In this document: one piece after another, positions 4,469 to 38,112 of the stretch | Layout: every line of letters begins with the position of its first letter | Numbering within the stretch: the first letter of the stretch is position 1 | DNA from: a virus | Reading direction: 5' to 3' (one strand) | IMG/VR virus record: IMGVR_UViG_3300002835_000400 | Span: 1 to 41,641 of that record | Length of the DNA: 41,641 bases | Position numbers and translations under genes: made by a program | The notes under the pieces: generated by a model | The model's database searches: none | What the model saw: only the letters and a program-made list of their open reading frames with translations | What the model was told of the DNA's origin: nothing

Positions 4469-4469
4469 T

Positions 4470-5441: not shown

Positions 5442-5445
5442 TATT

Positions 5446-5796: not shown

Positions 5797-5800
5797 TTTT

Positions 5801-6328: not shown

Positions 6329-6339
6329 AACTAATTATT

Positions 6340-7113: not shown

Positions 7114-7114
7114 T

Positions 7115-7492: not shown

Positions 7493-7496
7493 TTTT

Positions 7497-7787: not shown

Positions 7788-7789
7788 TC

Positions 7790-13428: not shown

Positions 13429-13430
13429 TT

Positions 13431-13682
13431 ATGCCTTCCATTGCTAAATCAAAAATAAGATTGACAGATTTTCCGAATAAATTTATCTCGCCTTTTACAG
13501 ATGAATTTCTGGTTCCTGTCTACTCGTCTATTCCTTTTGAAAAAAATCAAAATGAGTGCTTGCCGTGTGCGTTGTGCGGCACATACAATGATCGCCAAGA
13601 TGTCTTGGATCAAGTTGCTTCGCAGTATACGGGATTCAAGCAAGGACCAGTTCCAGACGAAATTTTTGTCGGTTTTAACTAA
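13431..13682 (+). CDS. Hypothetical protein with CxxC motif
   Basis: An 83-residue soluble protein. The centre carries NECLPCALCGTYND, with three cysteines in a CxxCxxC arrangement that could bind a metal, though no fourth ligand is obvious nearby. The C-terminus (ASQYTGFKQGPVPDEIFVGF) looks folded. It starts two bases after the tail hub gene and precedes the GNAT-like gene, so it is likely co-transcribed with structural genes. No family recognised. Confidence 0.55.
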   Translation: MPSIAKSKIRLTDFPNKFISPFTDEFLVPVYSSIPFEKNQNECLPCALCGTYNDRQDVLDQVASQYTGFKQGPVPDEIFVGFN

Positions 13683-13693
13683 TAAATAAATAC

Positions 13694-14083
13694 ATGAGAT
13701 CAACAATTGAATATAAGCTAATACCAAAAGATTCAGCAGAGTTCCTTGAACTTTCTGATTTCGCGGAAACATTTGATCATAAGATTGTAGATCATCCTCA
13801 AATCAATGTTTATGGTCATTACAAAGATAATAAGCTAGTTGGCTATAGTGACCATGTATTCATTCCAACAATTTATCCTGCTTTCCACCCAGATTTTACA
13901 ACTCCACGAGATGTGATACAGACCATGCATGACTGGAGAGTTTACAATCAACTTACAGGTGGTCCCGGCTATGTCGGAGTGCCATTGCAAAGTGAGCGAT
14001 TTACATTCACCAATGAAATCATGGAAAAGTTAGGCATGGAACGATTAAACCGAGAAGTATTTTACATTAAACGAAAGGAATAA
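13694..14083 (+). CDS. Hypothetical protein, possibly GNAT acetyltransferase-like
   Basis: A 129-residue protein. The order of segments (INVYGHYKDNKLVGYSDHVFIPTIYPAFHPD, then RDVIQTMHDWRVYNQLTGGPGYVGVPL, then NEIMEKLGMERLNREVFYIKRKE) follows the beta-strand, loop and final 'LGMxRxxxEVFYIK' pattern of small GNAT-fold proteins, including those sometimes seen near phage virion genes. I do not see the usual R/Q-x-x-G-x-G/A acetyl-CoA loop clearly, so activity is doubtful. It is followed after 4 bases by the first MGG protein. Confidence 0.5.
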   Translation: MRSTIEYKLIPKDSAEFLELSDFAETFDHKIVDHPQINVYGHYKDNKLVGYSDHVFIPTIYPAFHPDFTTPRDVIQTMHDWRVYNQLTGGPGYVGVPLQSERFTFTNEIMEKLGMERLNREVFYIKRKE

Positions 14084-14087
14084 AATT

Positions 14088-15101
14088 ATGGGTGGAGCCG
14101 CAACAGTACCTACTGGTCGATACATGAGCCGACCTGATTATCAAACAGATTTTCAAATTTTATCTCAAAAACAAGGGATGGGGAATACCGCCCTTGATAT
14201 TGCGTCTACTGATTTAAATGCCGCTCAAGCTGGAGTATTAGGTACACAATTAAATTTACTTAAATCAAGAGGAGACACTTTAAGCACCGCAAGAAATGTA
14301 TTTGATTTGCAATCAAAGATGCAACCTTTGATGCAAGATTTTGATGCCGAGCAGACCTCTCGGCAAGCCGCGCAATTTGGCTTATCTAATGAAGCGAGGG
14401 CAAGGCAGGGAGAAGAATTGCTTTCTCCTGCGACTGCTCGTATGCGGTATCAATTGCCAGAACAAATCGAAGCGGTGACATCTGACGAGTCTTTTAAAAA
14501 CCGCATGGATGCTTGGTTGAAAAATAAAGGCATTTCTTCAGTTAGTGGAACAGGCGTCGATCCTTCGTCATCTTTTGGCCGATCCATGCTTGCAGATGTA
14601 TCAACTGAAGAGGGACGCAAGCGGATGCTGGAAGACATTGAACTGCGGAATAAGTTTGTTACTAGCCAGCAACGCCCAATCGGAGGATTAGACCCTAGCG
14701 CATTGATCAACAAAAGAATGACAGCAGAAGCTGAAAATCGTGGTGCAATGTCAGACTGGCAATCAGGTATTTTACAAGGAGCGCAACAACTTGGTCAAAT
14801 TAATCAATTAAAACAAGCAGAAGAATTTGAACAGGCAAGACAACTTGGATCAACGCTTGATTCATTCCAGCAAGCAAGAATGGGATTAAATCAAAATGCC
14901 TTTGACTATTTAAGCAAGAATATGGGAGAGATTTTAAATCTATCCAATGTTCAAAAGCAAAATCGTCAGGCTTATGATCAATCTTTATACAATGCGGCAG
15001 TTCAAAATGCACAATCGCAGAATGCTTCAAAAGCAGGCATGATTTCGGCAGGCGCAGGCATTGGTGGTGCGGCAATCGGTGCGGCGGCAATCATTATATA
15101 A
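14088..15101 (+). CDS. Putative internal virion protein, MGG type
   Basis: A 337-residue protein starting MGGAATVPTGRYMSRPDY. The body is mostly helical and Gln/Ala/Ser-rich, with long runs such as AQQLGQINQLKQAEEFEQAR. The last about 20 residues are a glycine-alanine hydrophobic stretch (GAGIGGAAIGAAAIII) that could insert in a membrane or form a pore. Ejection proteins of podoviruses share this mix of helical, Gln-rich body and hydrophobic segment. A rare strong ribosome-binding sequence, AAAGGA, lies 10 bases before the start (cgaaaggaataaaatt). It is the first of five genes in the next 4 kb that begin with MGG. Confidence 0.6.
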   Translation: MGGAATVPTGRYMSRPDYQTDFQILSQKQGMGNTALDIASTDLNAAQAGVLGTQLNLLKSRGDTLSTARNVFDLQSKMQPLMQDFDAEQTSRQAAQFGLSNEARARQGEELLSPATARMRYQLPEQIEAVTSDESFKNRMDAWLKNKGISSVSGTGVDPSSSFGRSMLADVSTEEGRKRMLEDIELRNKFVTSQQRPIGGLDPSALINKRMTAEAENRGAMSDWQSGILQGAQQLGQINQLKQAEEFEQARQLGSTLDSFQQARMGLNQNAFDYLSKNMGEILNLSNVQKQNRQAYDQSLYNAAVQNAQSQNASKAGMISAGAGIGGAAIGAAAIII

Positions 15102-15118
15102 ACAAAAAATCTGTCTAT

Positions 15119-15952
15119 ATGGATCAACTTATTAGCGAAACAATCGAGAAAGCTAAAAGATGGGCAAAAAATTGGCCCAATTCTGTCGTTTTGTGGTCAG
15201 GTGGAAAAGACTCGACTGCGATGCTTCATTTGCTTAAATTTCAAGCTGGAATCGATGTGCCTGTAATTCAGTTTCGGCAACCGAAATTTCGCGAGCGATA
15301 TGCGTATTCAGATCAATTGATCCGAGATTGGGATTTGACTGTCTTTGACTACCCTGCAAGCCGATTTGCATTAGCAGATGGTCCTGATACAGAGACTGGC
15401 GAGGTGCGCTTTGATCTTCTACATTATTTCCAATGGGGAACTAAAGCTGTTGTTCTGTCATTAGGAACCGAGCGTCCAAAGGAAGGTGAGAAGTTCATGT
15501 GCGGTGTGCGTGACTTTCTAAAACGACCCACAGGAACCTTTAATTGGCCGTGGGAGTCAGTCTGGATCGGAACTAAAAACTCCGATACTGATTTGATCAA
15601 AGGTCATGTGCCTATTTCGCAAGATATTCGCCATGCTGATGGCAGTCCTGTATCGCTTTACCTTATGCGCGATTGGACTGATCGCGACATCTATCAATAT
15701 CTAGAGGATAACAAAGTAAAAGCCGATCCTACTCGATATATTAAAACAAAATCTGGATGGGCAAACAATCCTGACAAGTCTTTAAACGCAGACTTCTATC
15801 CGACTTGCTTAAATTGTGTAGATCGACATCAAGGCAATCAAGTGTATTGCCCAAAGTTAAAAGCAACTGTGACAAATATATCACATCTTGCACCATACGA
15901 AGATATCGTGATACCAGAGTTAGGATTCAAACCAGTTAATTGGGAGAAATAA
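15119..15952 (+). CDS. CysH-like PP-loop protein (PAPS reductase family)
   Basis: A 277-residue protein with the PP-loop nucleotide-binding motif SGGKDST at residues 27-33, followed by helix and strand order typical of phosphoadenylyl-sulfate reductase / adenine nucleotide alpha hydrolase folds. These activate a substrate through an adenylate. The usual reductase redox motif ECGxH is not present. Instead the C-terminal third has CLNCVDRH...CPK, with three clustered cysteines. This suggests sulfur or nucleic-acid chemistry (as in DndC-type or tRNA-thiolation relatives) rather than assimilatory sulfate reduction. The gene lies inside a block of virion proteins with 17 and 1-base gaps, so it may be an accessory gene expressed late. 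Substrate unknown. Confidence 0.75.
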   Translation: MDQLISETIEKAKRWAKNWPNSVVLWSGGKDSTAMLHLLKFQAGIDVPVIQFRQPKFRERYAYSDQLIRDWDLTVFDYPASRFALADGPDTETGEVRFDLLHYFQWGTKAVVLSLGTERPKEGEKFMCGVRDFLKRPTGTFNWPWESVWIGTKNSDTDLIKGHVPISQDIRHADGSPVSLYLMRDWTDRDIYQYLEDNKVKADPTRYIKTKSGWANNPDKSLNADFYPTCLNCVDRHQGNQVYCPKLKATVTNISHLAPYEDIVIPELGFKPVNWEK

Positions 15953-15953
15953 T

Positions 15954-16385
15954 ATGGGTGGAGCAAACAAATCAAGCACTTCAACAACGCCGGGAGGGGC
16001 ATTTAACCCTCAAGCGCAAGTTCAAAAAGCAACTCAAGCAACCGCCGCAGATTTAGCGGCATTCGATGCAGAGCAGTTGCAAAACAAACGAATTGCTCAA
16101 GGACTAGATTTTTTAGGACAAGGAATTTCAGGCACGGCTAATAGCAGTCCTGCATCTACTCCTGCATCTGCCGCTTTAGCGAGTCAGAATCAAGCAGATA
16201 ACTATAAAAAATTAATGGAGATGCAATTATCTCAAAAAGATTCTGACTCTTTAAATTTCATGCCGCAAATGCCATTTAATTTACAAAGCACAAACCCTGA
16301 ATTAGTTAATAATGCTTGGGCAGATGCTGTTAAAACATTGGTTGGAAGTGCAGTATCTGGTGCTGGTCAGATGTATAAGAAGTGA
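15954..16385 (+). CDS. Putative internal virion protein, MGG type, PELV motif
   Basis: A 143-residue soluble protein beginning MGGANKSSTSTTPGG, rich in Ala, Gln, Ser and Asn. Near its end is LQSTNPELVNNAWADAVKTL, matching VKSSQPELVSQGWASGLKEG in the protein encoded at 18471, followed in both by a Gly/Ala helix. The shared block suggests a common partner or duplicated module. It begins with one base between it and the CysH-like stop, and its TGA overlaps the GTG start of the next gene. Function inferred only from neighbours. Confidence 0.6.
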   Translation: MGGANKSSTSTTPGGAFNPQAQVQKATQATAADLAAFDAEQLQNKRIAQGLDFLGQGISGTANSSPASTPASAALASQNQADNYKKLMEMQLSQKDSDSLNFMPQMPFNLQSTNPELVNNAWADAVKTLVGSAVSGAGQMYKK

Positions 16386-16663
16386 CGAATTATGATTGCC
16401 AAAAATGCGGAGCCTGTTGCAGTTTTAAGTGGTCATGGCCGATCTTCAAACGAGATCGATCAGATGCAACTGGCATTCCTGCGGAAATGCAACGAACAGA
16501 TTATCCTATAATGAAGACTGAAAACAACAGATGCGTTGCTTTAGAAGGTGAAGTTGGAACCGCAGTTAAGTGTTCTATTTATAATTGCAGACCGCAGGCG
16601 TGTAGGTTATTTGAACCCGGATCAAAACTTTGCTTGGAAGCTAGGTCTAAAATAGAATTATAA
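16382..16663 (+). CDS. YkgJ-like cysteine-cluster protein
   Basis: A 93-residue protein with Cys at 6, 9, 12 and 13 (CQKCGACC) and further Cys in KCSIYNCRPQACRLF and LCLEA. This pattern, CxxCgaCC followed by C...(Y/R)PxxCrxF, is that of YkgJ/FliB-type zinc- or iron-chelating proteins. The gene starts at GTG, since the in-frame codon overlaps the preceding TGA (GTGA) and no ATG is available in frame before the first cysteine. Phage copies are seen occasionally; role unknown, perhaps metal binding linked to the CysH-like protein two genes upstream. The motif is clear; the function is not. Confidence 0.75.
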   Translation: MTNYDCQKCGACCSFKWSWPIFKRDRSDATGIPAEMQRTDYPIMKTENNRCVALEGEVGTAVKCSIYNCRPQACRLFEPGSKLCLEARSKIEL

Positions 16664-16665
16664 TT

Positions 16666-17283
16666 ATGGGTGGCTCATCATTTGGAAAAGTTGTAACTAA
16701 AGTTGTTGATCCTTTTAACCTTGGGAATTCTAAATTTGTTAAATCCGCTAGAAAAGTAATTGATCCATTAAATATAATGGACCCATTAAATGTTTTGCCG
16801 GGAAGCGGTAAGCCAATTGGGACATGGGATAAAAACTTTGGTGCGCCATTAATGAACTGGTTAAATCCAAAGCAAAGTTCATATACACCAATGACAAAAG
16901 GGTTGCCATCAAATGCTCAATATTTTCAGCAACAACAACAAATGTTGCAAAATATGCAAGCACAGCAACAGATTAAACAAGCACAGCAACAAAGTAAACT
17001 TGCTAATTTGAGATCACAAGCACCATCTTACCCTGCCGCTACTCAAACAACAACTGCTCAAGTGCCAGCTACTTTATCTGCTTCAGCAACCGCTCCGTCA
17101 ACTGCTCCGTCAACTGCTCCGTCAACTGCTACTCTTGCACAAACAAAAAGTAGTGATACAGCTATTGCTTCCGACTTGCCAATAGAATTCGGTTATAAAC
17201 CACCAACTACAACTTCAAAAGTTGCAACTGCAAATACATTTTCATTGCCTAATATGTCAGACATTAAGTTTGGCGGGGCATAA
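16666..17283 (+). CDS. Putative internal virion protein, MGG/FGG family member 1
   Basis: A 205-residue protein with MGGSSFGKVVTKVVDPFNLG at its start, then a Gln-rich segment (about 88-112) and a repeated APST unit (TAPSTAPSTAPSTA). It ends ANTFSLPNMSDIKFGGA. The end matches those of the next two proteins: F-S/T-L/M-P, five or six residues, then I/L-K/Q-FGG plus one residue. The N-terminal VDPFN...DPLN...DPLN repeats are unique to this copy. No enzyme motif is seen. Probably a virion or ejected protein carrying a short conserved C-terminal tag. Confidence 0.6.
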   Translation: MGGSSFGKVVTKVVDPFNLGNSKFVKSARKVIDPLNIMDPLNVLPGSGKPIGTWDKNFGAPLMNWLNPKQSSYTPMTKGLPSNAQYFQQQQQMLQNMQAQQQIKQAQQQSKLANLRSQAPSYPAATQTTTAQVPATLSASATAPSTAPSTAPSTATLAQTKSSDTAIASDLPIEFGYKPPTTTSKVATANTFSLPNMSDIKFGGA

Positions 17284-17309
17284 CAAATAAACGAAAGGAA
17301 AATAAAATT

Positions 17310-17888
17310 ATGGGCGGCGGACCTAGCGGACCATCAAAGTCTCAAATTAAAGCAGAGCAGGGATTGCGAAATCAAGAAATGCAGATGCAACAAGCGCAAT
17401 TCAATCAACAAATGGCTCAACAAGCACAAATGGCGCAATTGCAACAACAGCAGGCTGAACAAGCAAGGCAGGATGCAATTTTTGAGCGTCAGAGAATTGA
17501 AAGCGAGCAAGCGCGGATAATGGAGGAGCAAAAAAAAGAACGAGCAAGAATTGAAGAGCAACAACGACAAGCGGCAATTGAAAGTCAAAATGTTGCCGCC
17601 GCTCAACTTCGCAGGCAACAAGAATCCAAAGCACAGCAGGAACTATCTGCCGTCTCTAGCGCACAAACAATGGCAGACCAACAAAGGCAAGAGCAAGAGC
17701 GTCAGGCGGCATTGTCCGCAGGGGCGCAGGCTACTGGTGCTGGCTACAATTTAAATGCCGCTCGCAAGCAAGCATTGATTGGGATGAAAGGAACTCCAAA
17801 TCTCCCTGCTACGGAAGCTAATCAATCTGCATCTAGCAATGTTTTCACTATGCCTAAAACAACTGGACTTCAATTTGGAGGAACTTAA
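17310..17888 (+). CDS. Putative internal virion protein, MGG/FGG family member 2
   Basis: A 192-residue protein: MGGGPSGPSKSQIKAEQ, then about 100 residues of Gln/Glu/Arg/Ala-rich coiled coil (QQQAEQARQDAIFERQRIES and similar). A conserved GAGYNLNAARKQAL segment follows, and the end is VFTMPKTTGLQFGGT. GYN and the FGG end are shared with the following gene. The region before the start has a strong AAAGGA ribosome-binding sequence with an A/T spacer, nearly identical to that before the gene at 14088 (cgaaaggaa...aaaattatgggYgg). Long helix plus a tag suggests a filament-forming or ejected internal protein. Confidence 0.65.
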   Translation: MGGGPSGPSKSQIKAEQGLRNQEMQMQQAQFNQQMAQQAQMAQLQQQQAEQARQDAIFERQRIESEQARIMEEQKKERARIEEQQRQAAIESQNVAAAQLRRQQESKAQQELSAVSSAQTMADQQRQEQERQAALSAGAQATGAGYNLNAARKQALIGMKGTPNLPATEANQSASSNVFTMPKTTGLQFGGT

Positions 17889-17889
17889 T

Positions 17890-18471
17890 ATGGGAGGAAG
17901 TAAAGGTAGAGGTAAAAAAAACGATGGTGGTGGCAGTAGTCCCGCGCCTCAAAATAATAATTGGCAAGCACAGCAATCTGCAATGCAATCTGCACAGCAA
18001 AACGCACAGCAAAACGCACAGCAGGCGGCAATGCAACAACAGATGGAGCAATCTAGGCAAGCGGCAGAAGCTGAAAGAAAGCGGCAAGAAGAAGCTGAAG
18101 CTGAACGAATTCGCCAACAAAATATCCAAGCTGAAAATCAAAAAGCGGCAGACTTCCGCAGGCAATCAGAAAATAAAATTCAATCGGACTTTACTAGTGC
18201 CGCACAAAACCAGCAACGACTCGATCAGCAAGCCGCGCAAAACTATGCCAGCACAACCGCAGGCGGAAGCGGCTACAATGTTGGTTCTGCCCAACAGCAA
18301 AAAATCTCGGCGGCAGGGGGCGTTGCTGGACCTGCATCAACCAATGCGCCATCGTCTATGCAAATGGGACTTCCGCCTATTCTCGCGTCAAATGCTGGTG
18401 TTGGCGGCACTCCACAAAATACTAACTTCTCACTCCCGTCCGCTCAAGGACTACAATTCGGAGGTATGTAA
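17890..18471 (+). CDS. Putative internal virion protein, MGG/FGG family member 3
   Basis: A 193-residue protein starting MGGSKGRGKKNDGGGSS, then about 100 residues of AQQ-type and Glu/Arg-rich coiled coil. A GSGYNVGSAQQQKI segment follows, and the end is FSLPSAQGLQFGGM. It is the closest relative of the gene just upstream, sharing layout, GYN and the LQFGG end while the middle has diverged. The frame is open further upstream, but the ATG one base after the previous stop aligns the MGG start with its paralogues. Its TAA overlaps the ATG of the next gene (TAATG), so translation is coupled to a long internal virion protein. Confidence 0.65.
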   Translation: MGGSKGRGKKNDGGGSSPAPQNNNWQAQQSAMQSAQQNAQQNAQQAAMQQQMEQSRQAAEAERKRQEEAEAERIRQQNIQAENQKAADFRRQSENKIQSDFTSAAQNQQRLDQQAAQNYASTTAGGSGYNVGSAQQQKISAAGGVAGPASTNAPSSMQMGLPPILASNAGVGGTPQNTNFSLPSAQGLQFGGM

Positions 18472-20136: not shown

Positions 20137-23100
20137 ATGGCATGGCAACCTCCTGAAGATGAATTAGACAGTAATGTTCTACAACAATGGAAACCTCCTG
20201 AAGATGAATTAGACAAAAATCTTCCAGATCAATGGAGTCCTCCTGAAGATGAACTGGATAATAGTCCTACAAAAATTAAAGATGTAGGAGCATTAAAGCA
20301 GATGAAAGATTCGGGTCAGAAATTGACCTATGATCAAGAACGAGTCTTGTTTGATGCTGAAGATAAAAAACCATTCACTCAAAAGGTATCCGAGGCAGTA
20401 AATACATTTGTTCCAACAGCAATTGATATTGCCAAGCAATTAGGTTCTGGTGCTGGTGAGTTTATTTACAAAGGCGTTTTAAAGCCAATCGATGCAATGT
20501 CTCAAAGTCCAGAGGAGGCTGAAAAGACATTAAAAGAAGCTGGAAATATTTGGAGGTCTGGGGCGCATGGTTTTGGTCAAGACATTCAAGAAACAGCAGA
20601 TGCTGGTGTGCGCTTTGCAATGTTTGGAAGTGACTTTACCGATAAACTTTTAGGTAGGTCTGAAAACGAAAGATTTGAGAAATATATGTTGCGCCAAGGA
20701 ATGCGTGAATTTTCTCAAAAAGTTTACGAAGACAATCCTGATGCGGCGGCACGATTGCTTTCAGAAAATCCTTTATTGCAAAAATTGGCATATGCCGCCG
20801 CACTAGCGCAAGGCGGAACAAAAGAAGAAGCTGAATTAGCTCAAAAAGCATATAGTGAATTGGTTCTGGAAAGCGGATTAAAGAAAGAAGATATTAATGA
20901 AAATGTTGCTCTTTTTGCAGAAGTTTTATCTCCGTTGTCTTTGCCGGGAACAAATACCGCAACCAAGTTTTTAAACAAAGGAACGACAAAATTTGTTCAA
21001 AAAACTGGAGAACTAGCGTTAAAGGGTGTAGCCGCACCAATTGCAAAAGGCATAGAAAAAACCGCAGGAGTTGTCGAAGCTGGAATTGAAGGAGCGCAAA
21101 ATCTGTCTCGCAAGATCGGCGAGTATACAGTTGGCGACCCAGATACTTTATTAAAAGCAACTGTCACGACTGCCGCCGCACCAGTAAGAATCCCTGCAAA
21201 GATGGTTCGTGGTATCGCTAGGACTGTTTACGATGTGGCATCTGAAGCAGGACCGGGGCGCATTGGAATGTTTGAGCGAGCAGGCAAGAAACTAGATTCA
21301 GGCGCACTTACTAAAAAATTATTTAGTTCTGAAGCATTGGGAGGAAAAGGTAGGGCGAGAGTTGCTGACTGGGCAGTTCGTCAGACTAATGCCATTGTTC
21401 AGCCTGCCGTCAATGGTGCTGTATTGAATGTTGCTCTAGGATTGCCCGATATCGAGTCCGCAACGGATTTGGGATACATGGCAGGCGTTGGTGCTGGAAT
21501 CGGCGGATTTGGAGGCTCTAGGCTCCAAGAACGAGGCATGGCATTATTTGATCCAACAACTAGCCTAGCTCAAAAAATTGATGCTGTTGTAACTCCAGAC
21601 CCAATGGGATTGCGTCGAGATCAAGATGCTGACATCAAACGATTCTTGTCTACAGCAGACTCTTCTTTGGTTGATAGCATTAACGAGTTATCTAATGTAA
21701 ATAATATTAAATCTGCTTTAGAGGTTAAAATTAAAAACCTTGAAGGCAGACGAGATGCTCAAATTCGCAAAGAAGACTCTGCTAGAATTCAAAGAGACAT
21801 CAATAATCTTAAAGCACAGAGGATTGAACTAGAGAAAGTAAATCCAGAAACTGAAAATGAAATTAAGCGTCAAGTGCAATTAAGTTTTGCTGACGCTATG
21901 GATTTAGCAAAAACAACTGGTGCGGCGGCGGGATTAAGTAACATCGAAGTCAAGGTTTTAAAGCCTGAACAGATGGATCAATTCTATCGAGATAAGTTTG
22001 GCAAAACTCTTACTGATGCTGAAAGTGTAGTTAAGCAATTAGTTGGCAATCCAAATCTATCTCCGTCCGAGCAAGAATTATTAACCAGAGCAGATGCTAC
22101 TATTCGACAATACTTGAGCGATGTTGCAGGAGCATCTACTGCGAGAGGATTTGCAATTAGCGAGCGACCTGATGTTCCAGAGCATCTGCGGATGCAGAAT
22201 CAGAAGGGCGCAACTGTAGTGATCAATGGTGATCTTGTATCGCAGATGGGTCGAGATGGATTGAACTTGTCGCGAGTTATCAATCACGAAATGCAACACG
22301 CACTTTCTAATTTCACAGAAGTGCGTCAAATGCTTGATCCGATTCGCAGGCAATTGTTCGATCAGAAGATTCAAAATCCAGACGGCACATTTGATGTTGT
22401 TTCAAGCGGCATGATTACCGATGCCGAATTGGATAAATACGCAATTCAATATGCGGCAGGCATGGATGCATCTGGCGGGGCATCTTTCCTTGGTCAATTT
22501 GCCAATCAAGATCAACTCCGAGCATACATGAAGGAGGAGGTGCTATCGGAGCTTGCAGGGCTTTCTGGTGCTTCGCATGGCGACTTGCGTAGTGGATTGG
22601 ATTCCGTAGGACGGCAAGCTGTAGATTGGCTTGAGACGAAGACAAAGACAGGTGCGTTAAAAACAATCAAAGAAGGTTTGCGTCAGTTTGGGATTGGATT
22701 TGATGACCAAGGAAAATTTACCTCGGTTCTTGGAACTAATCTTCCACCAGAGGCATTTTCAATGATTCGCCAATATCAACGCAAAATGCGCGATTTGAAT
22801 GAAAGCCTTGTCTACAATTCCAGCCCATTAAAAGATGCGCCAGAGATTCCGCTGACTGCACTAGCTACGAATCGTGCGCTTCAAGAGCGTTACAAGCATT
22901 CTGACTTTTTCGAGCAACAGCAAGTTGTCACTTTAGAATCTCCAGATGGTAGCAAACAAGAGGTTGTTGTTCCCGCTGACGCAAAGTTAGATCGATTTGT
23001 TGGACAATATCGTTTTGCTAATGGTCAGTTGGTAGATGAGCAAGGCAACCCTATTTCACTTGGTCCTGATATTCCGCTTCAAGCCATGCCTGACGGCACA

Positions 23101-26100
23101 TCTGTTTCTCTGGACACTAGGATTGCCAGAAACCCAGATGGATCGCCAAGAATCTTATCTCCACGGGAATCGAAACGCCGAGCAAAACAACGAGGCGAGA
23201 TTATCCGAAAAGCCGTTGATGACGCTCCTGATGATGAATCTGGGGTGAGACTGGAAGACATGGGGAACGGGAATTACCGAGGCACACTTTCTCCTACGCA
23301 AATCGAAGCAATTAACAACCTGCCTAATGATATTGTTGCGCCTTCACTTAAACGCAAGATTGCATTCTTTAACGATATTCTTGGGCGTAAGGATGGAAGC
23401 ATCGTAGAGATTGAATATCAAGCGGCACTTCGTGACGGGAAATATCGTGCATTAAAACCGCAACTTCGCACCGAAATTCCGATTGGTTTCCAGTTCGACA
23501 AGCAAGGTAATTTCTTGATGACTACCATGTCATTGTCGCGGATGTATGACAAAGCGAATGCATGGGCGGCAAAGCGTCCTCGCAATCTTCGACTTTGGGG
23601 TGGTGATATGACCAAGTTCTGGGATTCCGTTCGTCAATACTTGATGAATCATCAAAAGGGATTGCAGGGTCATATTGGATTAAATGCCGATCCAGAGATT
23701 GCAATGCAGATGAAAAATCGCATCAACGATCTTTTCAATGTTTATCGTAAAGAGACTCGCGAGGCTAATCCAGAACGCACAATTCTTCCAAAACGCCGGG
23801 GGCAAGACCCAATGGATGTTGTCATTCGTTCTAGGCGCATGGATCGAATTAATTCTTTTGATGAAACTGCTCTTCCAAAGATGCCGTTTCAGTATGAGTT
23901 AGCAGTTCAGAATTATCTTCCCGCAGAAAACCCATTTGCTGAATTACAAGATGCACAGCAGTTTGCTAAAGCAATGGAGGTAGATGAAGAATTAGTTAAT
24001 CGAGCTATTGCTGGAGATATTGAACCATTGGAATTGCAGTTGCATGAGCAAGACCTGCTTCGTCCTGCTGAATACATCGATGTTAGCAATGGCAAGATTC
24101 GCGTGAGGTCTATGTTTGATCCTACTCAAGCAATTTTTGAGCAAGGTGAAAGCAATCCAGAATCTCCATCACAATTGCAATTCCTTCCTTCCGAAATCGA
24201 AGCACCATCTGGCGAGCGTGGATTCCAAAGTAAATTGCAAATGGAAATTCAAAGTAAGTTCCTTGGTGCAATGGCAACTCCAGAGCAGTTGAAGGCAGTT
24301 TTGAACAACCCGCAGAATGTCAAAGCGGAGGAGGTTAAATGGTCAGGAGTCAATGACGCAATCGACAGGCTTGCAAGCGAGAACAACGGCAAGGTTCCTG
24401 TGCAGGAATTGCTAAATTATTTGCGAGATGAAGGGCAAGTTAAGTTTGAGGAAGTCACCATTGGATATGATAATGAAATTCAAAAAATTGCTGATCAATA
24501 TAGAATTAAAATTGAAGATGAGTATGGTGAAAAAGCATTTTACGATGAATTTGATGAGCCTCTTGAATTAGATGAAGTTCCGCCTCAATTATTAGACGCA
24601 ATATATAAAGCAGGGAAAAAACCTGAACCAAGTTATGCTCAATACCAACTTCCCGGCGGTGAAAACTATCGTGAAGTTGTGATGGCGATGCCATCTCAAA
24701 AAGGAGTTCAAATTTTAAAAGATGGAAAAGTTGTTTGGGAAGACAATGAAATAACTCCAACTGGCAAACAAATATCTGATTTGAAATATCAATATCCAGA
24801 AAGTAAAGGATATTCAGTTGTTGGGAAGGGTTCTGAACAATACACCTCTTCCCACTTCCCCGAAATTCCAAACTATGTGGCGCATATGCGTCTTAACGAG
24901 CGCACAATCCAAGATGTTGGATATGCTATTCGCAATACAGAAAGTGGCAGGAAAGGCCCAGTTAAAGCAACCCGTGCAGAGGCTGAAGCAGATTTAAAAC
25001 AATATCCTGCAAGTTACTCATTGGAAATAGTTGAAGTTCCAAGAAATGTAGATGGATTGTTCATCGAAGAGTTGCAGTCTGACAGGCATCAGGCGGGTAG
25101 GGAAGAGGGATATACTGAAGATACAAAACCATTATTAATTGAAGAAGAAAAAAGACTCGATTCTATACGAGAAAAAATACAATTTTTAGAAGAAAATGGT
25201 ATAGATGAAGATAATCCAACCCCAGAGTATCGATCATTGGATGCTGAATTTATTAATTTAGCAAGAAGACTTCAAGGAGGTTCTATTCGCGCAGTTCCAG
25301 ACGCACCATTCCGCAAAGACTGGTCACTACAACTCTTCAAACGCGCATTGCGCGATGCGGTAGAGTCAGGGAAGCAATGGATTGGTTGGACTACTGGAGA
25401 AACGCAGGCTGAACGCTATGACTTGAGTAAGCAGATTGGCAAGGTTGTATGGAATGAAGATACAAAAATGCTGACTGCTTATGATCCAAGTCAGAAAAAA
25501 ACTGTTATTCAAGAGTCCAATATAACATCTGAAAAACTTGCAGATTATGTTGGAAAAGAAGTTGCACAAAAACTTGTTGAACAATCTCCAGATGAAGACA
25601 TGGACAGGCAAATATCTGGTCTTGATCTTAAGGTTGGCGGCGAAGGCATGAAAGGATTTTACGACACGATCCTGCCTAAAGAGCTTGGCAAATATGTTGC
25701 CAAGATGGGTGGCAAGGTTGAGAAGTCTGAAATTGTTATAGAAAAACCAAGCACATTTACTAAATTTACCAGAACTCCAAATTCAGTTCCTGAAATTATT
25801 AATGTTCGTGAAAAAACCGCACCAATTTGGCGAGTAAACATCACGCCGCAAATGGAGAATGTCGTTCGCGCAGGGCAGTTGCAGTTCATGCCTGCTGAAC
25901 AGACTATAAATAAAGTCCCAACTCAAGAGGAACTTGATGCAATGAAGGCACTATTGCCAAAATATACATCAAAATTAAGAAACATTAATAAAAATGAGAA
26001 ATATATTACAGTTTATGATGAAAATGGAAAACACGCAGGTAGTGCTGAAATATATGTAAATAAACCAGATAATTTTATTAGTATAGAATGGATTGATACA

Positions 26101-29100
26101 ACAATACAAAAAAATAAAGGATTCGGACAGGCATTGTATCGAGAAATAGCAAAGTATGCTCAACAACAAAATATTGATACAATTGAAGGTGAAATTATAA
26201 ATAAAAAAGCGGTAAAGCGAAGAGAAGAATTATTTGAAACAATTTCAAAATCAGAAGGAACTCTTGAGGGGGATTATGATGAAGACCCTAATAAAGGATA
26301 TTATGCAGACTTGACCAGCAAAGTTCCACCTGACATTCGCTTCATGCCTGCTGAAGTTGACGCTCGCTATATCGACCTTGAAGCAAAAGCTAAAGCTGGA
26401 GACAAGGAAGCTGAAGCGGAGGCAATAGCTATTGTTGAAAATATTGCAAAAAATGCAGGGGGCATTGAAGCATGGCATTTTGGATCATTTGATCCTTCTT
26501 ATGATCCTATTCCCAAAACAAAAAAAGGAATGCATTTTGGATCAAAAGAAGCGTCTATACAAAGGGCATTCGACAAACAACCAGAGGATGAGCGCAGATC
26601 ATTAGAGATTTTTGAAGAAAACGGATTGTGGTATTGGAAAACAAATACAAACGAAAGTTTAGATGGTTTTTCTACAAAACAATTAGCAGAAAATAATGCC
26701 AATAACGCAATAGCAGAAATGTGGATGTATCAAGATTATGATTATAATGATGTTGGTAATTTGACAAAAACATATTTGTTTTTTAATAACTTAAAAACAG
26801 TTAAAGATCAAGGTGATAACTGGAATGATACTATTATAAAATCAAAAGAAGAAGGATACGATGGTTTAAAATATAAAAATGAATTTGAAGACAAAGGATC
26901 GACTTCATATGTAATATTTAATCCTCAACAAGCAAAATCCGCAGACCCCTTCACCTACGACGATGCAGGCGCATTGATCCCGCTATCCGAGAGGTTCCAG
27001 TCTGCAACTCCTGACATTCGTTTCCTTCCTGCTGAACAAGGCGAACCAGAAGGCTTGCAAGGCATCGAACTGCCACAGACATACCGCAGGATTAGCGACA
27101 TGATTCCGCCTTTGCGCGATATTGAGCCTCCCGTGCGTCCTGTGCAAGCATTGCCAAACATTCAGTTCTTGCCAGAGGAAAAGACTCCAACTGCAAAAGA
27201 AGTTCTTAAAAAACCACTTGAAAATCTTCCATTAAAAGAAGTAAGCACTTGGACTGAAATACAAAAAGCACCAATAATTACGCTTAAAGACTTGATTGGG
27301 AAAAAAGTATTCCCAACATTTGCTGACATTACATCTGCTGGAAGAGTATTTAAAGGCATTGATTCAAGTGAACTTTTAATACCGATTGAAACTCATGGAG
27401 GCCCGGAATGGCCATTGATTCAACCAGAAAAAGTTGGAGAAGAAACAAATATTTGGTCTAATCAAGGCGCAGGTGTATCTACAACAAAAGCAAAACGAGC
27501 AGAAGAAGGGGCAATAATGCTTGTAACGCTAATGGATAAAAATGCACATTTATCTAATACTGAAGTTGCTAATGCAATTATCGGAACAAATTTAGCCTAT
27601 GTAAAAGATGGGAGAATAACAAAAAATAATTTAAAACTGCTTAACAAAAAAATTAAAGAAGAAGAGGCATTTAAAGATTTTGTTGGTATTGATTCTACTG
27701 AAATCAATGATTATGTGGCAAAACTGCCGTTCCAAGGTGATAAAAGCAGAGCAAGACTTGCAACTATTTTGTCTTCAAAAGAAGCAGAATCATTGGGATC
27801 GGCAAATGTTCAACGCATTCTTGATGAGATGCGTAGTCCTGCGTTTGAAGGCGGCAGGATTGGTGATTCTGTAATCGCACTTCAATTATCAAAAGGCGCA
27901 CCAGTTGTTAAATTGTCTGAATCTGGCGCGATGACTCATCCATCGTATCAATATGCCGTGAGAGGAAAAGTAATCGGGAAGTTTGCTCGCCCAATAAATG
28001 CAGAAATGATTTACGATGATTTTCTGGCACAAAGAAGATTAGAGGGCAAACCTACATCTGGAGATCGTAGGGCGATTGATCTTGCAAAACCAGTTCAAAT
28101 TATTACAAAAGAAATTGCAAATCGCATTCCACAGACTCCATATAAATATTTAAAGTCAGCGCAACACGCTAAATTATTAAAGTATGCACTTGAAAATGAC
28201 TGGAAGGATTCAGCCGTTGCAAAAAATAAAGGTGGAATTTCTCCAGCAGAATTTATTGACACTTTAAATTCAAGCGAAGCAAAAGTTGCTCTTAATGATT
28301 ACACTCTTGATTCAGTAAAAAAAGAAATCAAAGATGGCAAACTAAATTTGTATCAACTTGGAGACTCTAAAGTCTTTTTTGGGACAAAGAATAGCGACCC
28401 AGCAAGCGACTATGGATTAGACCCGAAAGACTACGGGTTTGGTGAAAATGAGAAAACGCTAACATTGGTATTGAATGCCGAGCGTGGAACCGCTGGCATG
28501 GGAGATGCCATTATGATGAAAGCGTTGTCAGAAGGCGTGACTGCTCTCGATTGTTTTGCAATTAAAAACTCAAGATATCCAGATGGTATGTTGCCATCAT
28601 TGTACAAGCGATTCGGATTTGAGGTTGTCGGTGAAATCCCATTTGACCCGCAATATTACACTCCGCAAAAATTGGCAGACATAAAATTGTTTTGGAAAAA
28701 TAATGGTTGGGACGAATCTACTGGACTTCCTTCCGTTGTTATGATGAAGTGGAAGGGAAATGAAAATGACCGAACAAGAAGCCTACGAGACATTGCTGGT
28801 AAAGCTCCAGCAGGTATTCGGGAACGAAATTCCTCACCTATCCGAGACACAGAAGGATATTTTGGACGGACTGATATTGGACAGGGTGGAGGCTCACAAG
28901 GGGGATTACAGCAAGGTGACTCTGGACGAGGTAGAGGGAGTCAGGGAGATGCTTTACAAGGAATTCAGCTTGGCAGAGGCACAATAAATGCAATCCAAGA
29001 ATTGTTTGGAATGAATGATGCTGAACTCAAAAATCTGGGGATTAATCCTTCTCAAATTCAAACAATAAAAAAAGCCATAGGATATAGTACTGAAAAAAAG

Positions 29101-29109
29101 AAAAACTAA
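20137..29109 (+). CDS. Giant polyvalent multi-domain protein, 2990 residues
   Basis: Seen in order: three 15-residue repeats with PPEDELD (about 3-47); helical and hydrophobic region (about 75-500); coiled coil (about 515-590); zincin motif HEMQH at 717-721; a domain with SGERGFQSKLQMEIQ (about 1358) and VKAEEVKWSGV; a large phage domain with MRLNERT (1584-1590), FIEELQSDRHQ (1642), WTTGETQAERYDLS (1751) and GGEGMKGFYDTILP (1834); a GNAT-like domain with GFGQALYREI (1995); an ADP-ribosyltransferase-like domain (about 2109-2290, AWHFGSF...GMHFGS...GYDGLKYKNEFED); a GGPEWP domain (about 2421); and a second acetyltransferase-like region (about 2770-2870). Such fusions are known as polyvalent proteins, thought to be injected with phage or plasmid DNA to counter host defences. 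Start set at the ATG one base past the previous stop. Confidence 0.85.
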   Translation: MAWQPPEDELDSNVLQQWKPPEDELDKNLPDQWSPPEDELDNSPTKIKDVGALKQMKDSGQKLTYDQERVLFDAEDKKPFTQKVSEAVNTFVPTAIDIAKQLGSGAGEFIYKGVLKPIDAMSQSPEEAEKTLKEAGNIWRSGAHGFGQDIQETADAGVRFAMFGSDFTDKLLGRSENERFEKYMLRQGMREFSQKVYEDNPDAAARLLSENPLLQKLAYAAALAQGGTKEEAELAQKAYSELVLESGLKKEDINENVALFAEVLSPLSLPGTNTATKFLNKGTTKFVQKTGELALKGVAAPIAKGIEKTAGVVEAGIEGAQNLSRKIGEYTVGDPDTLLKATVTTAAAPVRIPAKMVRGIARTVYDVASEAGPGRIGMFERAGKKLDSGALTKKLFSSEALGGKGRARVADWAVRQTNAIVQPAVNGAVLNVALGLPDIESATDLGYMAGVGAGIGGFGGSRLQERGMALFDPTTSLAQKIDAVVTPDPMGLRRDQDADIKRFLSTADSSLVDSINELSNVNNIKSALEVKIKNLEGRRDAQIRKEDSARIQRDINNLKAQRIELEKVNPETENEIKRQVQLSFADAMDLAKTTGAAAGLSNIEVKVLKPEQMDQFYRDKFGKTLTDAESVVKQLVGNPNLSPSEQELLTRADATIRQYLSDVAGASTARGFAISERPDVPEHLRMQNQKGATVVINGDLVSQMGRDGLNLSRVINHEMQHALSNFTEVRQMLDPIRRQLFDQKIQNPDGTFDVVSSGMITDAELDKYAIQYAAGMDASGGASFLGQFANQDQLRAYMKEEVLSELAGLSGASHGDLRSGLDSVGRQAVDWLETKTKTGALKTIKEGLRQFGIGFDDQGKFTSVLGTNLPPEAFSMIRQYQRKMRDLNESLVYNSSPLKDAPEIPLTALATNRALQERYKHSDFFEQQQVVTLESPDGSKQEVVVPADAKLDRFVGQYRFANGQLVDEQGNPISLGPDIPLQAMPDGTSVSLDTRIARNPDGSPRILSPRESKRRAKQRGEIIRKAVDDAPDDESGVRLEDMGNGNYRGTLSPTQIEAINNLPNDIVAPSLKRKIAFFNDILGRKDGSIVEIEYQAALRDGKYRALKPQLRTEIPIGFQFDKQGNFLMTTMSLSRMYDKANAWAAKRPRNLRLWGGDMTKFWDSVRQYLMNHQKGLQGHIGLNADPEIAMQMKNRINDLFNVYRKETREANPERTILPKRRGQDPMDVVIRSRRMDRINSFDETALPKMPFQYELAVQNYLPAENPFAELQDAQQFAKAMEVDEELVNRAIAGDIEPLELQLHEQDLLRPAEYIDVSNGKIRVRSMFDPTQAIFEQGESNPESPSQLQFLPSEIEAPSGERGFQSKLQMEIQSKFLGAMATPEQLKAVLNNPQNVKAEEVKWSGVNDAIDRLASENNGKVPVQELLNYLRDEGQVKFEEVTIGYDNEIQKIADQYRIKIEDEYGEKAFYDEFDEPLELDEVPPQLLDAIYKAGKKPEPSYAQYQLPGGENYREVVMAMPSQKGVQILKDGKVVWEDNEITPTGKQISDLKYQYPESKGYSVVGKGSEQYTSSHFPEIPNYVAHMRLNERTIQDVGYAIRNTESGRKGPVKATRAEAEADLKQYPASYSLEIVEVPRNVDGLFIEELQSDRHQAGREEGYTEDTKPLLIEEEKRLDSIREKIQFLEENGIDEDNPTPEYRSLDAEFINLARRLQGGSIRAVPDAPFRKDWSLQLFKRALRDAVESGKQWIGWTTGETQAERYDLSKQIGKVVWNEDTKMLTAYDPSQKKTVIQESNITSEKLADYVGKEVAQKLVEQSPDEDMDRQISGLDLKVGGEGMKGFYDTILPKELGKYVAKMGGKVEKSEIVIEKPSTFTKFTRTPNSVPEIINVREKTAPIWRVNITPQMENVVRAGQLQFMPAEQTINKVPTQEELDAMKALLPKYTSKLRNINKNEKYITVYDENGKHAGSAEIYVNKPDNFISIEWIDTTIQKNKGFGQALYREIAKYAQQQNIDTIEGEIINKKAVKRREELFETISKSEGTLEGDYDEDPNKGYYADLTSKVPPDIRFMPAEVDARYIDLEAKAKAGDKEAEAEAIAIVENIAKNAGGIEAWHFGSFDPSYDPIPKTKKGMHFGSKEASIQRAFDKQPEDERRSLEIFEENGLWYWKTNTNESLDGFSTKQLAENNANNAIAEMWMYQDYDYNDVGNLTKTYLFFNNLKTVKDQGDNWNDTIIKSKEEGYDGLKYKNEFEDKGSTSYVIFNPQQAKSADPFTYDDAGALIPLSERFQSATPDIRFLPAEQGEPEGLQGIELPQTYRRISDMIPPLRDIEPPVRPVQALPNIQFLPEEKTPTAKEVLKKPLENLPLKEVSTWTEIQKAPIITLKDLIGKKVFPTFADITSAGRVFKGIDSSELLIPIETHGGPEWPLIQPEKVGEETNIWSNQGAGVSTTKAKRAEEGAIMLVTLMDKNAHLSNTEVANAIIGTNLAYVKDGRITKNNLKLLNKKIKEEEAFKDFVGIDSTEINDYVAKLPFQGDKSRARLATILSSKEAESLGSANVQRILDEMRSPAFEGGRIGDSVIALQLSKGAPVVKLSESGAMTHPSYQYAVRGKVIGKFARPINAEMIYDDFLAQRRLEGKPTSGDRRAIDLAKPVQIITKEIANRIPQTPYKYLKSAQHAKLLKYALENDWKDSAVAKNKGGISPAEFIDTLNSSEAKVALNDYTLDSVKKEIKDGKLNLYQLGDSKVFFGTKNSDPASDYGLDPKDYGFGENEKTLTLVLNAERGTAGMGDAIMMKALSEGVTALDCFAIKNSRYPDGMLPSLYKRFGFEVVGEIPFDPQYYTPQKLADIKLFWKNNGWDESTGLPSVVMMKWKGNENDRTRSLRDIAGKAPAGIRERNSSPIRDTEGYFGRTDIGQGGGSQGGLQQGDSGRGRGSQGDALQGIQLGRGTINAIQELFGMNDAELKNLGINPSQIQTIKKAIGYSTEKKKN
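20143..20277 (+). repeat. Three 45-bp tandem repeats at start of the polyvalent gene
   Basis: Three successive 15-residue units beginning WQPPEDELD, WKPPEDELD and WSPPEDELD encode an acidic disordered N-terminus. The PPEDELD core is identical in all three; linkers vary. The DNA of the core is also nearly identical (cctcctgaagatgaa), so recent duplication is likely. An acidic repeated N-terminus could be a packaging or partner-binding tag. Confidence 0.85.
28766..28987 (+). CDS. Overprinted gene inside the polyvalent gene, +1 frame
   Basis: A 73-residue protein lies wholly inside the 3' part of the giant gene in another frame. Its sequence (TEQEAYETLLVKLQQVFGNE, then HLSETQKDILDGLILDRVEA) looks like a compact acidic helical protein. 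The ATG is preceded by AAGGGA with a 7-base spacer; an upstream ATG at 28760 is too close to that site. Over the same bases the giant protein reads as low-complexity Gly/Gln/Arg/Ser, which suggests the small frame imposes the stronger constraint. No family recognised. Its existence is well supported by composition and ribosome-binding site but not proven. Confidence 0.6.
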   Translation: MTEQEAYETLLVKLQQVFGNEIPHLSETQKDILDGLILDRVEAHKGDYSKVTLDEVEGVREMLYKEFSLAEAQ

Positions 29110-29267: not shown

Positions 29268-29273
29268 TTTTAT

Positions 29274-29344
29274 CGCAGGATAGAGAAAAGGTATCTCGGT
29301 AGGCCCATAACCTACAGTTGAGGGTTCGATTCCCTCTCCTGCAA
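29274..29344 (+). tRNA. tRNA-Met (CAT), initiator-like
   Basis: A full cloverleaf of 71 nt can be drawn. The acceptor stem is CGCAGGA/TCCTGCA with the first pair C1xA72 mismatched. The D-stem is GAGA/TCTC with a 7-base loop containing GG. The anticodon stem is GTAGG/CCTAC with loop CCCATAA and anticodon CAT. The variable loop is AGTT, and the T-stem is GAGGG/CCCTC with loop TTCGATT. The discriminator is A, and only CC, not CCA, follows. The C1xA72 mismatch and the A11-U24 pair are marks of bacterial initiator tRNA. Two of the three consecutive G-C anticodon-stem pairs are present (third is A-T), and position 33 is C rather than T, which is unusual. It could also be read by elongation or lysidine enzymes. 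Confidence 0.85.
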
Positions 29345-29447
29345 CCCCGCGAAGCTAGTGTTTATGCGGGTCTGCGGACTGCTTGGGTTTTTGATCAAGC
29401 GTCAAGCAAAAATGTTTTTACTATGACACAACGGATAAAAATAGTTC

Positions 29448-33974: not shown

Positions 33975-34778
33975 ATGTCACAACTAGTACCCATCACCGA
34001 ACTGGAAGCAATGGCTTCGCACATCGTCAAATCTGGCTTATTCGGCCTGAAGCGTCAGGAGGAGGCAGTAGCACTTATGCTTGTCGCGCAAGCCGAGGGC
34101 AGGCATCCCGGCACAGTTGCCGCCGAGTATCACATAATCCAAGGCAGACCAGCACTCAAGGCAGACGCTATCCTTGCTCGATTCCAATCGGCAGGAGGCA
34201 AAGTCGAGTGGCAGGATTACACAGACACGAAAGTGTCAGGCACATTTAGTCACCCAGCAGGAGGTTCACTCTATGTGGACTGGGACATGGAACGCGCAAA
34301 AGCCGCAGGACTCGGAGGCAAGGATAACTGGAAGAAGTATCCAAGGCAGATGCTCCGCGCCAGAGTGGTCAGCGATGGGGTTCGCGGGGTGTATCCTGCC
34401 GTGCTTCAAGGGTTCTACACTCCAGAGGAAGTTCAGGACTTTGTTTCTGCTCCAGCCGCAAACGCACCTGTTGCAGTATCTGCCACACCTGTGATCGAGG
34501 ATAAGCCGAAACCCGTAAAGAAAATCAAAGATGTTGCTCCTGTTATCGAAGCGGAAGTAATCGAGGCGACTCCTGAACTTGCGGAAGACAGAAGCTGGAC
34601 CGCGCCTATGGAGGCATCGCTCGGAGCGGAAGAGAATGCCGTTAATGCATTCCTCGCAACCAAGGGGCAGATCGATGCTGGGCAAACATGGCGCGACCTT
34701 CCAGACGCAACCTATCGCCAGCGCATCATAGCGAATCCTGAAGGATTCGTGAAAGCCGCAACCGCTACAAAGGAGTAA
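33975..34778 (+). CDS. RecT-like single-strand annealing protein
   Basis: A 267-residue protein. The first about 160 residues follow the RecT pattern: ASHIVKSGLFGLKRQEEAVALMLVAQAEG, then YHIIQGRPALKADAILARFQ, VEWQDYTDTKVSGTFSHP, DNWKKYPRQMLRARVVSDGVR and YPAVLQGFYTPEEV. RecT/Redbeta-type proteins anneal complementary single strands in recombination. The C-terminal 100 residues are a Pro/Ala/Glu linker and a short helical end. The nuclease gene follows immediately after one base, the usual pairing. Starts at an A-rich leader. Confidence 0.85.
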   Translation: MSQLVPITELEAMASHIVKSGLFGLKRQEEAVALMLVAQAEGRHPGTVAAEYHIIQGRPALKADAILARFQSAGGKVEWQDYTDTKVSGTFSHPAGGSLYVDWDMERAKAAGLGGKDNWKKYPRQMLRARVVSDGVRGVYPAVLQGFYTPEEVQDFVSAPAANAPVAVSATPVIEDKPKPVKKIKDVAPVIEAEVIEATPELAEDRSWTAPMEASLGAEENAVNAFLATKGQIDAGQTWRDLPDATYRQRIIANPEGFVKAATATKE

Positions 34779-34779
34779 T

Positions 34780-35772
34780 ATGATTCGGCATTCAGCACTT
34801 CCCAAACTGCAAAAATGCCCATGCTTTGAATCCGCTGGGGGGACATCCCCAGCGGCAAGCAGGGGGACAAAGATCGACTCTGTGATCCGCCGAACACTTC
34901 AAGGCGAGGACTGCATGGCAGAACTCTCCGCAGAGGATCAAGAGGCGGCAAAGCGAGGCGTCGAGATGGTCAAGAGCTTGGTTCCTGAAGGAACGGAACT
35001 CGAAACCCGCGAATCCGAACTTTGGGTAAAAACTCCCGGCATGGATCATGTAGGGACTGAAGACATTCGCGCCCAGAAGATTCGCGTCTCGTTCGATGTA
35101 AAGTCAGGTCAGGTATACGATTACGAGGCTCAAATGGGGGCATATGCGCTCGGCAACATGACTAGGTTCTTTGAGCCAGAGTGGACTTGCTATTTGTTAT
35201 TCGTTGACCAAAATCGAGTTGTTGAGCATAAGTTCACGATGGATTCGGCTACAGAGTTGGTCGATTCGATCATTAAAGCATACAATGATCCAGATAAAAA
35301 GCCTGTAAGCAATTCATATTGTGGCTGGTGTGCCAAGAAAAATACCTGCCCACAGGTTGTTAAGCCTACCGAGCAGACCCTGCGTGTTGTGAATAACGAG
35401 GTATCAATTGATACCCTGAAGGCGCAACTCGCGGAACCAGAGAAGCTGGGCAAGTTTCTAAAGGCTTGCAATATCTTTAAAAAAGAACTCTGGGACTGGG
35501 CGAAGGAGGAGGCTAAAGCCAGACTGGAGCGAGGCGAAGAGGTTCCGGGCTGGAGGCTTTCAAAGGTCAAAGGTGCTGAACAATACACTCCAGACGAAGT
35601 TGCTACTGCCGCTCAAACGACAGGCGCAACATACAAAGAAGTGGCTGAACTCTATGGCAACATTGGCGCAGAGGATTTCCGTAAGTGGGCAAACGCTCGC
35701 GATTATTTTCCTCTGCCAGAAGATGCCGTTCGCAAACCCGAAACAACCAAAATGCTTGAATCAAAGAAATGA
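34780..35772 (+). CDS. Cas4/RecB-like exonuclease
   Basis: A 330-residue protein. The motif I-III region reads GTEDIRAQKIRVSFDVKSGQ and YDYEAQMGAYALGN, the D..(D/E)xK...Q core of PD-(D/E)xK nucleases. Cysteines follow the Fe-S pattern of Cas4/AddB: an N-terminal KCPCF and a C-terminal CxxCxxxxxC (CGWCAKKNTC). It likely resects DNA ends to feed the annealing protein just upstream. The C-terminal 120 residues are helical (KFLKACNIFKKELWDWAKEE) with no named domain. Four bases overlap the next gene. A good ribosome-binding site AAGGAG lies 4-9 bases before the ATG. Confidence 0.85.
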   Translation: MIRHSALPKLQKCPCFESAGGTSPAASRGTKIDSVIRRTLQGEDCMAELSAEDQEAAKRGVEMVKSLVPEGTELETRESELWVKTPGMDHVGTEDIRAQKIRVSFDVKSGQVYDYEAQMGAYALGNMTRFFEPEWTCYLLFVDQNRVVEHKFTMDSATELVDSIIKAYNDPDKKPVSNSYCGWCAKKNTCPQVVKPTEQTLRVVNNEVSIDTLKAQLAEPEKLGKFLKACNIFKKELWDWAKEEAKARLERGEEVPGWRLSKVKGAEQYTPDEVATAAQTTGATYKEVAELYGNIGAEDFRKWANARDYFPLPEDAVRKPETTKMLESKK

Positions 35773-37416: not shown

Positions 37417-38112
37417 ATGAACAACGAACTACGACCATGCGCTGGCGAGAATTGCTTTGAAGTGCTTGAGGTTCCGATCATTGCAATATTCGGTCGATCA
37501 CTCGACTTCAAAGTGCTTTGCAATGACTGCGAGCAAAAATTGACAGAAGAGCAAGACAGGAAAGCCCAGCAATTGCGCGAGGATAGGGCTAGAAACGCTT
37601 TTGATAGTGCCTGCCCACCCTTGTATAGGGAAAGCGATTTAAAACGCATCCACGGGGATTTAAACGCAATTGCCACAAATTGGCAGTTTGGTCCAACTGG
37701 AGTCTTCATGGAGGGAAAGCCGGGGACTGGCAAGACCCGTGCTGGATGGCACATCCTCAAACGAATGGCTCACCAAGGCAAATCGATTTACGGATTGACC
37801 TCAACTCAATTCGCGAAATTCGCCGCCGATCAATGGCATTCAAACAACGAAGAAAAGGGTCACGCTTGCGAGGCAATGGAACGATGCCGCCGCACCTCAA
37901 TCCTGCTCCTAGATGACCTTGGAAAGCAAAAGATGACCGAGCGTGGAGAGACTGAATTATACGATGTTCTTGAGCATCGAACAACCAACCTAAAGCCGAC
38001 AATAATCACCACAAACGCAACCTCGATTCAGCTTGGCGCAATGCTCTCCGAGGATCGCCGCCAACCAATTCTTCGCCGCATTAAAGATTTCTCAACGATC
38101 ATCAAAATATGA
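37417..38112 (+). CDS. DnaC-like helicase loader, AAA+ ATPase
   Basis: A 231-residue protein. Walker A is GKPGTGKT (100-107), Walker B ILLLDDLG (162-169), sensor 1 TIITTN (195-200), and an arginine-rich end (EDRRQPILRRI) supplies a likely arginine finger. The N-terminus has four cysteines (8, 13, 35, 38), a possible zinc site. Such ATPases load the replicative helicase. It follows the DUF1376 protein after a few bases, so the two form a replication pair. The upstream open frame overlaps the previous gene; the ATG chosen lies just past it. No helicase gene appears, so the host helicase is probably recruited. Confidence 0.85.
   Translation: MNNELRPCAGENCFEVLEVPIIAIFGRSLDFKVLCNDCEQKLTEEQDRKAQQLREDRARNAFDSACPPLYRESDLKRIHGDLNAIATNWQFGPTGVFMEGKPGTGKTRAGWHILKRMAHQGKSIYGLTSTQFAKFAADQWHSNNEEKGHACEAMERCRRTSILLLDDLGKQKMTERGETELYDVLEHRTTNLKPTIITTNATSIQLGAMLSEDRRQPILRRIKDFSTIIKI

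Follow-up and report, generated by a model that had tools for sequence, protein, structure and literature searches.

The question raised by this locus is how a single phage protein of almost 3000 residues can carry several disparate domains, and what marks the borders between them. The window, by which we mean the whole stretch of DNA analysed, is a 41,641-base IMG/VR virus contig from a phage of freshwater type. At 60,117 bases, L002 is a longer contig nearly identical to it, and numerous related contigs measure 60-63 kb.

A giant gene at the end of the virion cassette

The giant gene covers 21.5% of the window, in agreement with the original prediction, which had put it at more than a fifth. 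Its start at ATG 20137 is backed by the relative L005, which has a near-identical beginning (MAWQPPE). The acidic N-terminal repeat tag proposed earlier is indeed present as three copies of W[QKS]PPEDELD (repeat score p=0.01). Among 44 giants sharing the large domain that we call module B, 28 revealed a significant short repeat among their first 80 residues, in most cases an acidic tandem tag, with sequences that depend on the lineage (WxPPEDELD, SILDxADxEF, SILDEIxxEV, IDDLIKDIDNVL, DDxFWxxLKK); these are possibly packaging or ejection tags.

Between 7.8 and 29.1 kb, the genes stand in an order that recalls the T7 late cassette (Table 1). In the window and its relatives, the giant gene comes immediately after virion genes in gp12-, gp14- and gp15-like positions, and in relatives with enough flank it is the last gene after the tail, gp14-position and gp15-position genes; the order of MGG-starting proteins, gp15-position protein and giant is repeated in about 20 relatives. 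This place at the end of a T7-like virion and ejection cassette fits delivery, and the giant protein is probably injected with the phage DNA. The MGG-starting small proteins, found in most relatives of the window lineage, occupy 15954-18471, and the C-terminal tag common to three of them is similar to the initial half of the junction word described below. Inside the virion cassette there is a PHROG match of the PAPS-reductase/QueC family (15119-15952); in addition, a collagen-repeat tail fibre protein lies at 1237-3255, a tRNA-Met (CAT) directly 3' of the giant gene (29273-29347) and a match to PHROG 3704 ('ferredoxin') beside the replication genes (38109-38657).

Table 1. Positions of the giant protein, its parts and the neighbouring virion genes in the window
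Feature	Residues	Position	Strand	Remark
Tail/virion proteins		7790-13428		
Small protein, phage GNAT-like by eye		13694		no PHROG match
gp14-position protein		14088		
Three small MGG-starting proteins		16666..18471	+	common C-terminal tag [GD][LI][TQK]FGG
gp15-position ejection-type protein	554 aa	18471..20135	+	phrog_2534 'released from the phage upon host infection', E=8.9e-5; synteny
Giant polyvalent protein	2990 aa	20137..29109	+	ORF without internal stop; relatives 2554-3152 aa
N-terminal tag, three W[QKS]PPEDELD copies	3-41	20143..20259	+	
Zincin metallopeptidase-like region	684-819	22186..22593	+	
HEMQH	717-721	22285-22299	+	
E801	801	22537-22539	+	candidate third ligand
Junction word 1, QNYLPAE	Y1260	23908..23928	+	end of conserved core; leading position is Q
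Junction word 2, LQFLPSE	F1349	24175..24195	+	
Module B, FIEELQSDRHQ...GGEGMKGFYD	1354-1914	24196..25878	+	uncharacterised phage domain
Junction word 3, LQFMPAE	F1917	25879..25899	+	unstructured, pLDDT about 39
GNAT module (probable)	1922-2066	25900..26334	+	
Junction word 4, IRFMPAE	F2069	26335..26355	+	
ART-PolyVal-like module	2074-2293	26356..27015	+	
Junction word 5, IRFLPAE	F2296	27016..27036	+	
Junction word 6, IQFLPEE	F2344	27160..27180	+	
C-terminal module	2349-2990	27181..29106	+	

On sequence grounds, the giant is a polyvalent phage protein in the T7 gp16/N4 gp50 position. The earlier assignment to the polyvalent class was confirmed, since a zincin signature, GNAT, ART and module B stand in one chain, encoded together with virion and delivery genes, though the Pfam scores of zincin, GNAT and ART are individually weak. 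Polyvalent proteins were defined by Iyer et al. 2017 (PMC5512222), who predicted their processing by zincins and drew an analogy with RNA-virus polyproteins. Those described there share with ours the very large chain, in which a zincin-like peptidase is combined with ART, GNAT and domains that are uncharacterised, and the virion-gene setting, but module B falls outside Pfam and the word-bounded cassette order is new with respect to that text. As with gp16 of T7 and P22 (PMC8954989), the gene comes last in a series of tail, gp14- and gp15-position genes; unlike gp16, the giant is more than twice the size, has effector modules and revealed neither a transglycosylase match in Pfam nor clear membrane helices. 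The hydrophobic helices of the original prediction were likewise not borne out as membrane helices, the top 19-residue hydropathy being only 1.34. The N4 virion RNA polymerase gp50 (PMC12633501) is likewise a giant, ejected protein in which several domains, one of them with HExxH, are connected by flexible linkers, but no RNA polymerase domain was detected in the window giant. Among phage isolates, only distant and partial relatives of the giant protein were found, so existing virion proteomics cannot be linked to it, and a scan of genome contigs gave one weak match.

A zincin-type core followed by exchangeable modules

As far as the comparison of relatives allows the chain to be parsed, it is built from a conserved core, comprising the N-terminal tags and the zincin-type region, and from exchangeable modules behind it, namely module B, GNAT, ART, a proline-rich spacer and a C-terminal module. 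In an alignment of 23 sequences over residues 560-1262, H717, E718, H721 and E801 are invariant, and an invariant HExxH with a downstream Glu is what would be expected of an active zincin. Pfam Peptidase_M48 was matched weakly by six of the 23 members (best E=0.002) and SprT-like by two. The AlphaFold2 model of the core has a mean pLDDT of 71, and for the zincin region no PDB match by Foldseek had an E below 0.001, so that the zincin fold is not proven. From the claim of a zincin, the motif with its candidate third ligand and weak family matches thus stood, whereas a significant fold match did not emerge.

Viral contigs contain at least 588 relatives of module B, which was pointed out earlier as a large phage domain; it belongs to no Pfam family, and a clear fold match in the PDB was not obtained. 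Residues 1922-2066 are probably a GNAT domain. They contain the KNKGFGQA loop, comparable to the acetyl-CoA loop Q/RxxGxG/A, and their PDB matches by Foldseek are mostly GNATs, many with a probability of 0.9-0.99 and E of about 0.02-0.2; loop, Pfam and PDB matches all favour the GNAT assignment made previously, but the three Pfam acetyltransferase models matched weakly, below the cut-off, and no PDB match had an E below 0.02. The predicted ADP-ribosyltransferase is recognisable through a sub-threshold match to PF18760 (E=4.5e-4). From the H-Y-D triad, H (AWHFG) and D (GYDGL) are present, but the Tyr position is apparently His (GMHFG). AlphaFold2 gave a mean pLDDT of 61 for residues 1344-2346, with low confidence in the ART part, and the model therefore speaks neither for nor against an ART fold. 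The second acetyltransferase region suggested for the C-terminus found no support, as this module is without a Pfam match and hits only phrog_2563 of unknown function.

The modules after the zincin core are a variable, swappable set, whose content and order differ between relatives. The C-terminal module is about 88% identical in L006 while the cores are just 26% identical, figures that also describe the protein pair P0001 and P0003; the ART module is 93% identical in L007, and the pair P0001 and P0004, with an ART identity of 93%, shares 34% identity across a long common stretch. The GNAT module is also found in L022 and L011, and in a different order in L078, where it precedes module B, whereas it lies 3' of module B in the window. 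To regard this arrangement as a complete early-takeover kit, as had been proposed, is an overreach, considering that the modules are variable and swappable among relatives and that two of the claimed elements are unsupported. In L012, the giant gene is split into ORFs at 4440-9659 and 9893-15457, with the break inside the ART module, which may be a frameshift, an assembly error or a natural split.

Short words at the module junctions

Overlooked in the original prediction, every module junction of the window protein bears the short word [ILV]x[FY][ML]P[AES]. Among 62 non-redundant relatives, collected via module B and thus without selection on the word, the strict form [ILVMA]xF[ML]P[AE] occurs 74 times compared with 1.84 times in shuffles, with up to about eight copies per protein flanked by different modules. 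In the modelled stretch, the pLDDT is below 50 at three of the four junctions, and the fourth borders such a segment. A de novo repeat count per protein exceeded shuffles for some proteins only and is a weak signal alone, and a loose test with a four-letter word and one mismatch allowed was too permissive to be informative.

A repeated-word search of the remaining giants, combined with inspection, uncovered that other polyvalent lineages bear their own words, namely LxSRRA (L035, L033, partly L032), RAMRG (L070), QAMPDA (L043, L057, L073), FQQD and SPAD, with essentially one word type per giant. In L033, the words lie between Pfam domains, the LPD1 domain ending at 2084 and the word following at 2092 (8 residues), and sigma-70 region 4 ending at 2686 with a word at 2701 (about 15 residues). 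The words of L070 are placed before InPase (4070 vs 4105) and after a helicase/methylase pair. When the 30 residues before module B were compared with the 12 after it, within and between proteins, the match within a protein reached 20.8 versus 15.8 (sd 0.6) for permuted pairs (0/5000), and 12 representatives with different words gave 20.9 versus 14.1 (sd 1.2; p<5e-5). Examples of such flanks are SRRAATDD and SRRATKDD, SPADDSE and SPADESD, AAKPDKESPE and AAKPESAEEE, and FQQDE and FQQDR, before and after module B, respectively. That lineages differ in the word but not in its role suggests some handling of the chain at these sites, be it cutting or another process.

The class of polyvalent proteins is known, while the punctuation rule appears to be the new element, apparently undescribed in open-access papers. 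The text of PMC5512222, so far as it was accessible, names no junction motif or cleavage site, and the term 'linker' is absent from it; a description of the junction words was not found in open-access papers, subscription papers and most preprints being outside the scope of this search. The words make module boundaries readable in giants that no domain database recognises, and they suggest a route by which phages exchange injected effectors.

Possible handling of the chain at the words

The reading we prefer, to which we give nearly even chances, is that the words are recognition sites and that the chain is cut there into its modules, with the embedded zincin as the probable cutter. Separation of the modules at the words, by this zincin or, less probably, by another protease, would take place ahead of packaging, inside the capsid or once the chain has been injected, upon which GNAT, ART and the other modules would act as separate proteins and the giant would function as a self-processing polyprotein. 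An embedded protease signature together with repeated words between modules is what such a polyprotein would be expected to display, and the giant has both. Recombination between word-bearing linkers could then exchange modules without breaking the processing. In a broader form, which we put forward more tentatively, polyvalent proteins would be true self-processing polyproteins, each lineage having a protease-specific cleavage word that recurs at all module boundaries and co-evolves with the core protease, and acquired modules would have to bring the local word or gain it. Predictions that polyvalent proteins are processed go back to 2017, and no proposed site was found; the words provide exact, testable candidates. 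If cleavage does occur at them, a set of new metallopeptidase specificities is thereby defined, and if self-processing holds for the class, it would be a DNA-phage counterpart to the cleavage code of RNA-virus polyproteins.

The co-occurrence of core and word fits a zincin that would cut its own chain. An MP/LP word is found in all 26 proteins with a window-type zincin and a readable module-B junction, while 17 of 23 giants without this zincin carry another word; these counts are not phylogenetically independent, and common descent predicts the same association. The remaining six with MP/LP have other HExxH or HExxxH motifs, which in L012 lies in the upstream ORF. A strict dependence on a zincin in cis is ruled out, as word matches also occur in L070, L079 and L063, giants without HExxH, and a zincin in cis cannot account for every lineage. 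Counting against cleavage, the HExxH-bearing vRNAP (gp50) of N4 is packaged uncut according to PMC5512222. The internal antirestriction proteins DarA, DarB and DdrB of P1 are ejected with the DNA, some of them processed before packaging (PMC12810830, PMC5512222). For DarA the cut is made by the P1 prohead protease, but no such protease was recognised in the 60-kb relative contig: the tested ORFs of its remaining 18 kb matched no protease family, several ORFs there being without annotation. That translation begins internally, at the ATG of F-M-P, was also rejected, because the words of other lineages are mostly without Met, L frequently replaces M, and the copies inspected by eye have no Shine-Dalgarno-like stretch upstream.

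Another possibility is that the words are recombination joints, DNA-level homology blocks left by module shuffling whose role in the protein is just that of a tolerated linker. In 25 relatives, 128 of 406 breakpoints, taken as internal ends of nucleotide alignments with an identity of 85% or more, are no farther than 45 nt from a junction word, i.e., 31.5% versus 5.8% expected under uniform placement, an effect size rather than an exact p-value since the breakpoint pairs are not independent. The phage also has RecT- and exonuclease-like genes (33975-35772), and codon sharing between copies of the window lineage is 0.63 versus 0.44 expected, probably owing to recent module exchange through the word regions; the FMPERP subtype appears to move together with modules. 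Part of the pattern is thus recombination history. However, L035, L070 and L078 each encode the copies of their word peptide by differing codons. The five SRRA copies of L035 read TCT CGA CGC GCA, TCT CGT CGC GCC, TCC CGA AGG GCT, TCC AGG AGA GCG and TCA CGT CGC GCC, varying in Arg, Ser and Ala codons with CGN/AGR switches included, and the constancy of the peptide despite scrambled codons speaks for selection at the protein level in the SRRA lineage. All four proline codons are used at the fixed proline, in a word that is itself defined by pattern, and the words survive between lineages that share no more than about 35% identity in module B. Peptide selection and recombination both seem to operate, and joints without a function in the protein are an unlikely explanation.

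Alternatively, the words could serve docking or threading, each module carrying a motif for a common, lineage-specific partner such as the portal, an inner-core protein or a chaperone, so that nothing is cut and the long chain is helped in ordered packing and in unfolding through the tail. This agrees with words that are unstructured in the AlphaFold2 model, repeated and lineage-specific, with the same by-lineage variation of the N-terminal tandem tags, with the [GD]L[TQK]FGG ends of the upstream small proteins, which are like the word half [GD]L[QR]F, and with the narrow-tube ejection of T7 gp16 and N4 gp50 (PMC8954989, PMC12633501). A common partner might, however, read the word in other virion proteins as well, and in 15 loci the neighbouring ORFs were free of their own lineage's word except for one FQQD match, probably by chance; the window-lineage word is absent from those of four loci of its lineage. 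Together with the co-occurrence of zincin and word, this makes docking a rather improbable reading compared with cleavage. That the words are the C-terminal strand of each module, and part of its fold, is very improbable: the [ILV]xF half does belong to module ends (GQ..F in module B, DIRF in ART), but unrelated modules of one protein share the same ending, and homologous modules continue differently elsewhere, with DIRF-MPAE against DIRF-SKKP and GQxxF-MPAE against GQxxF-SRRA.
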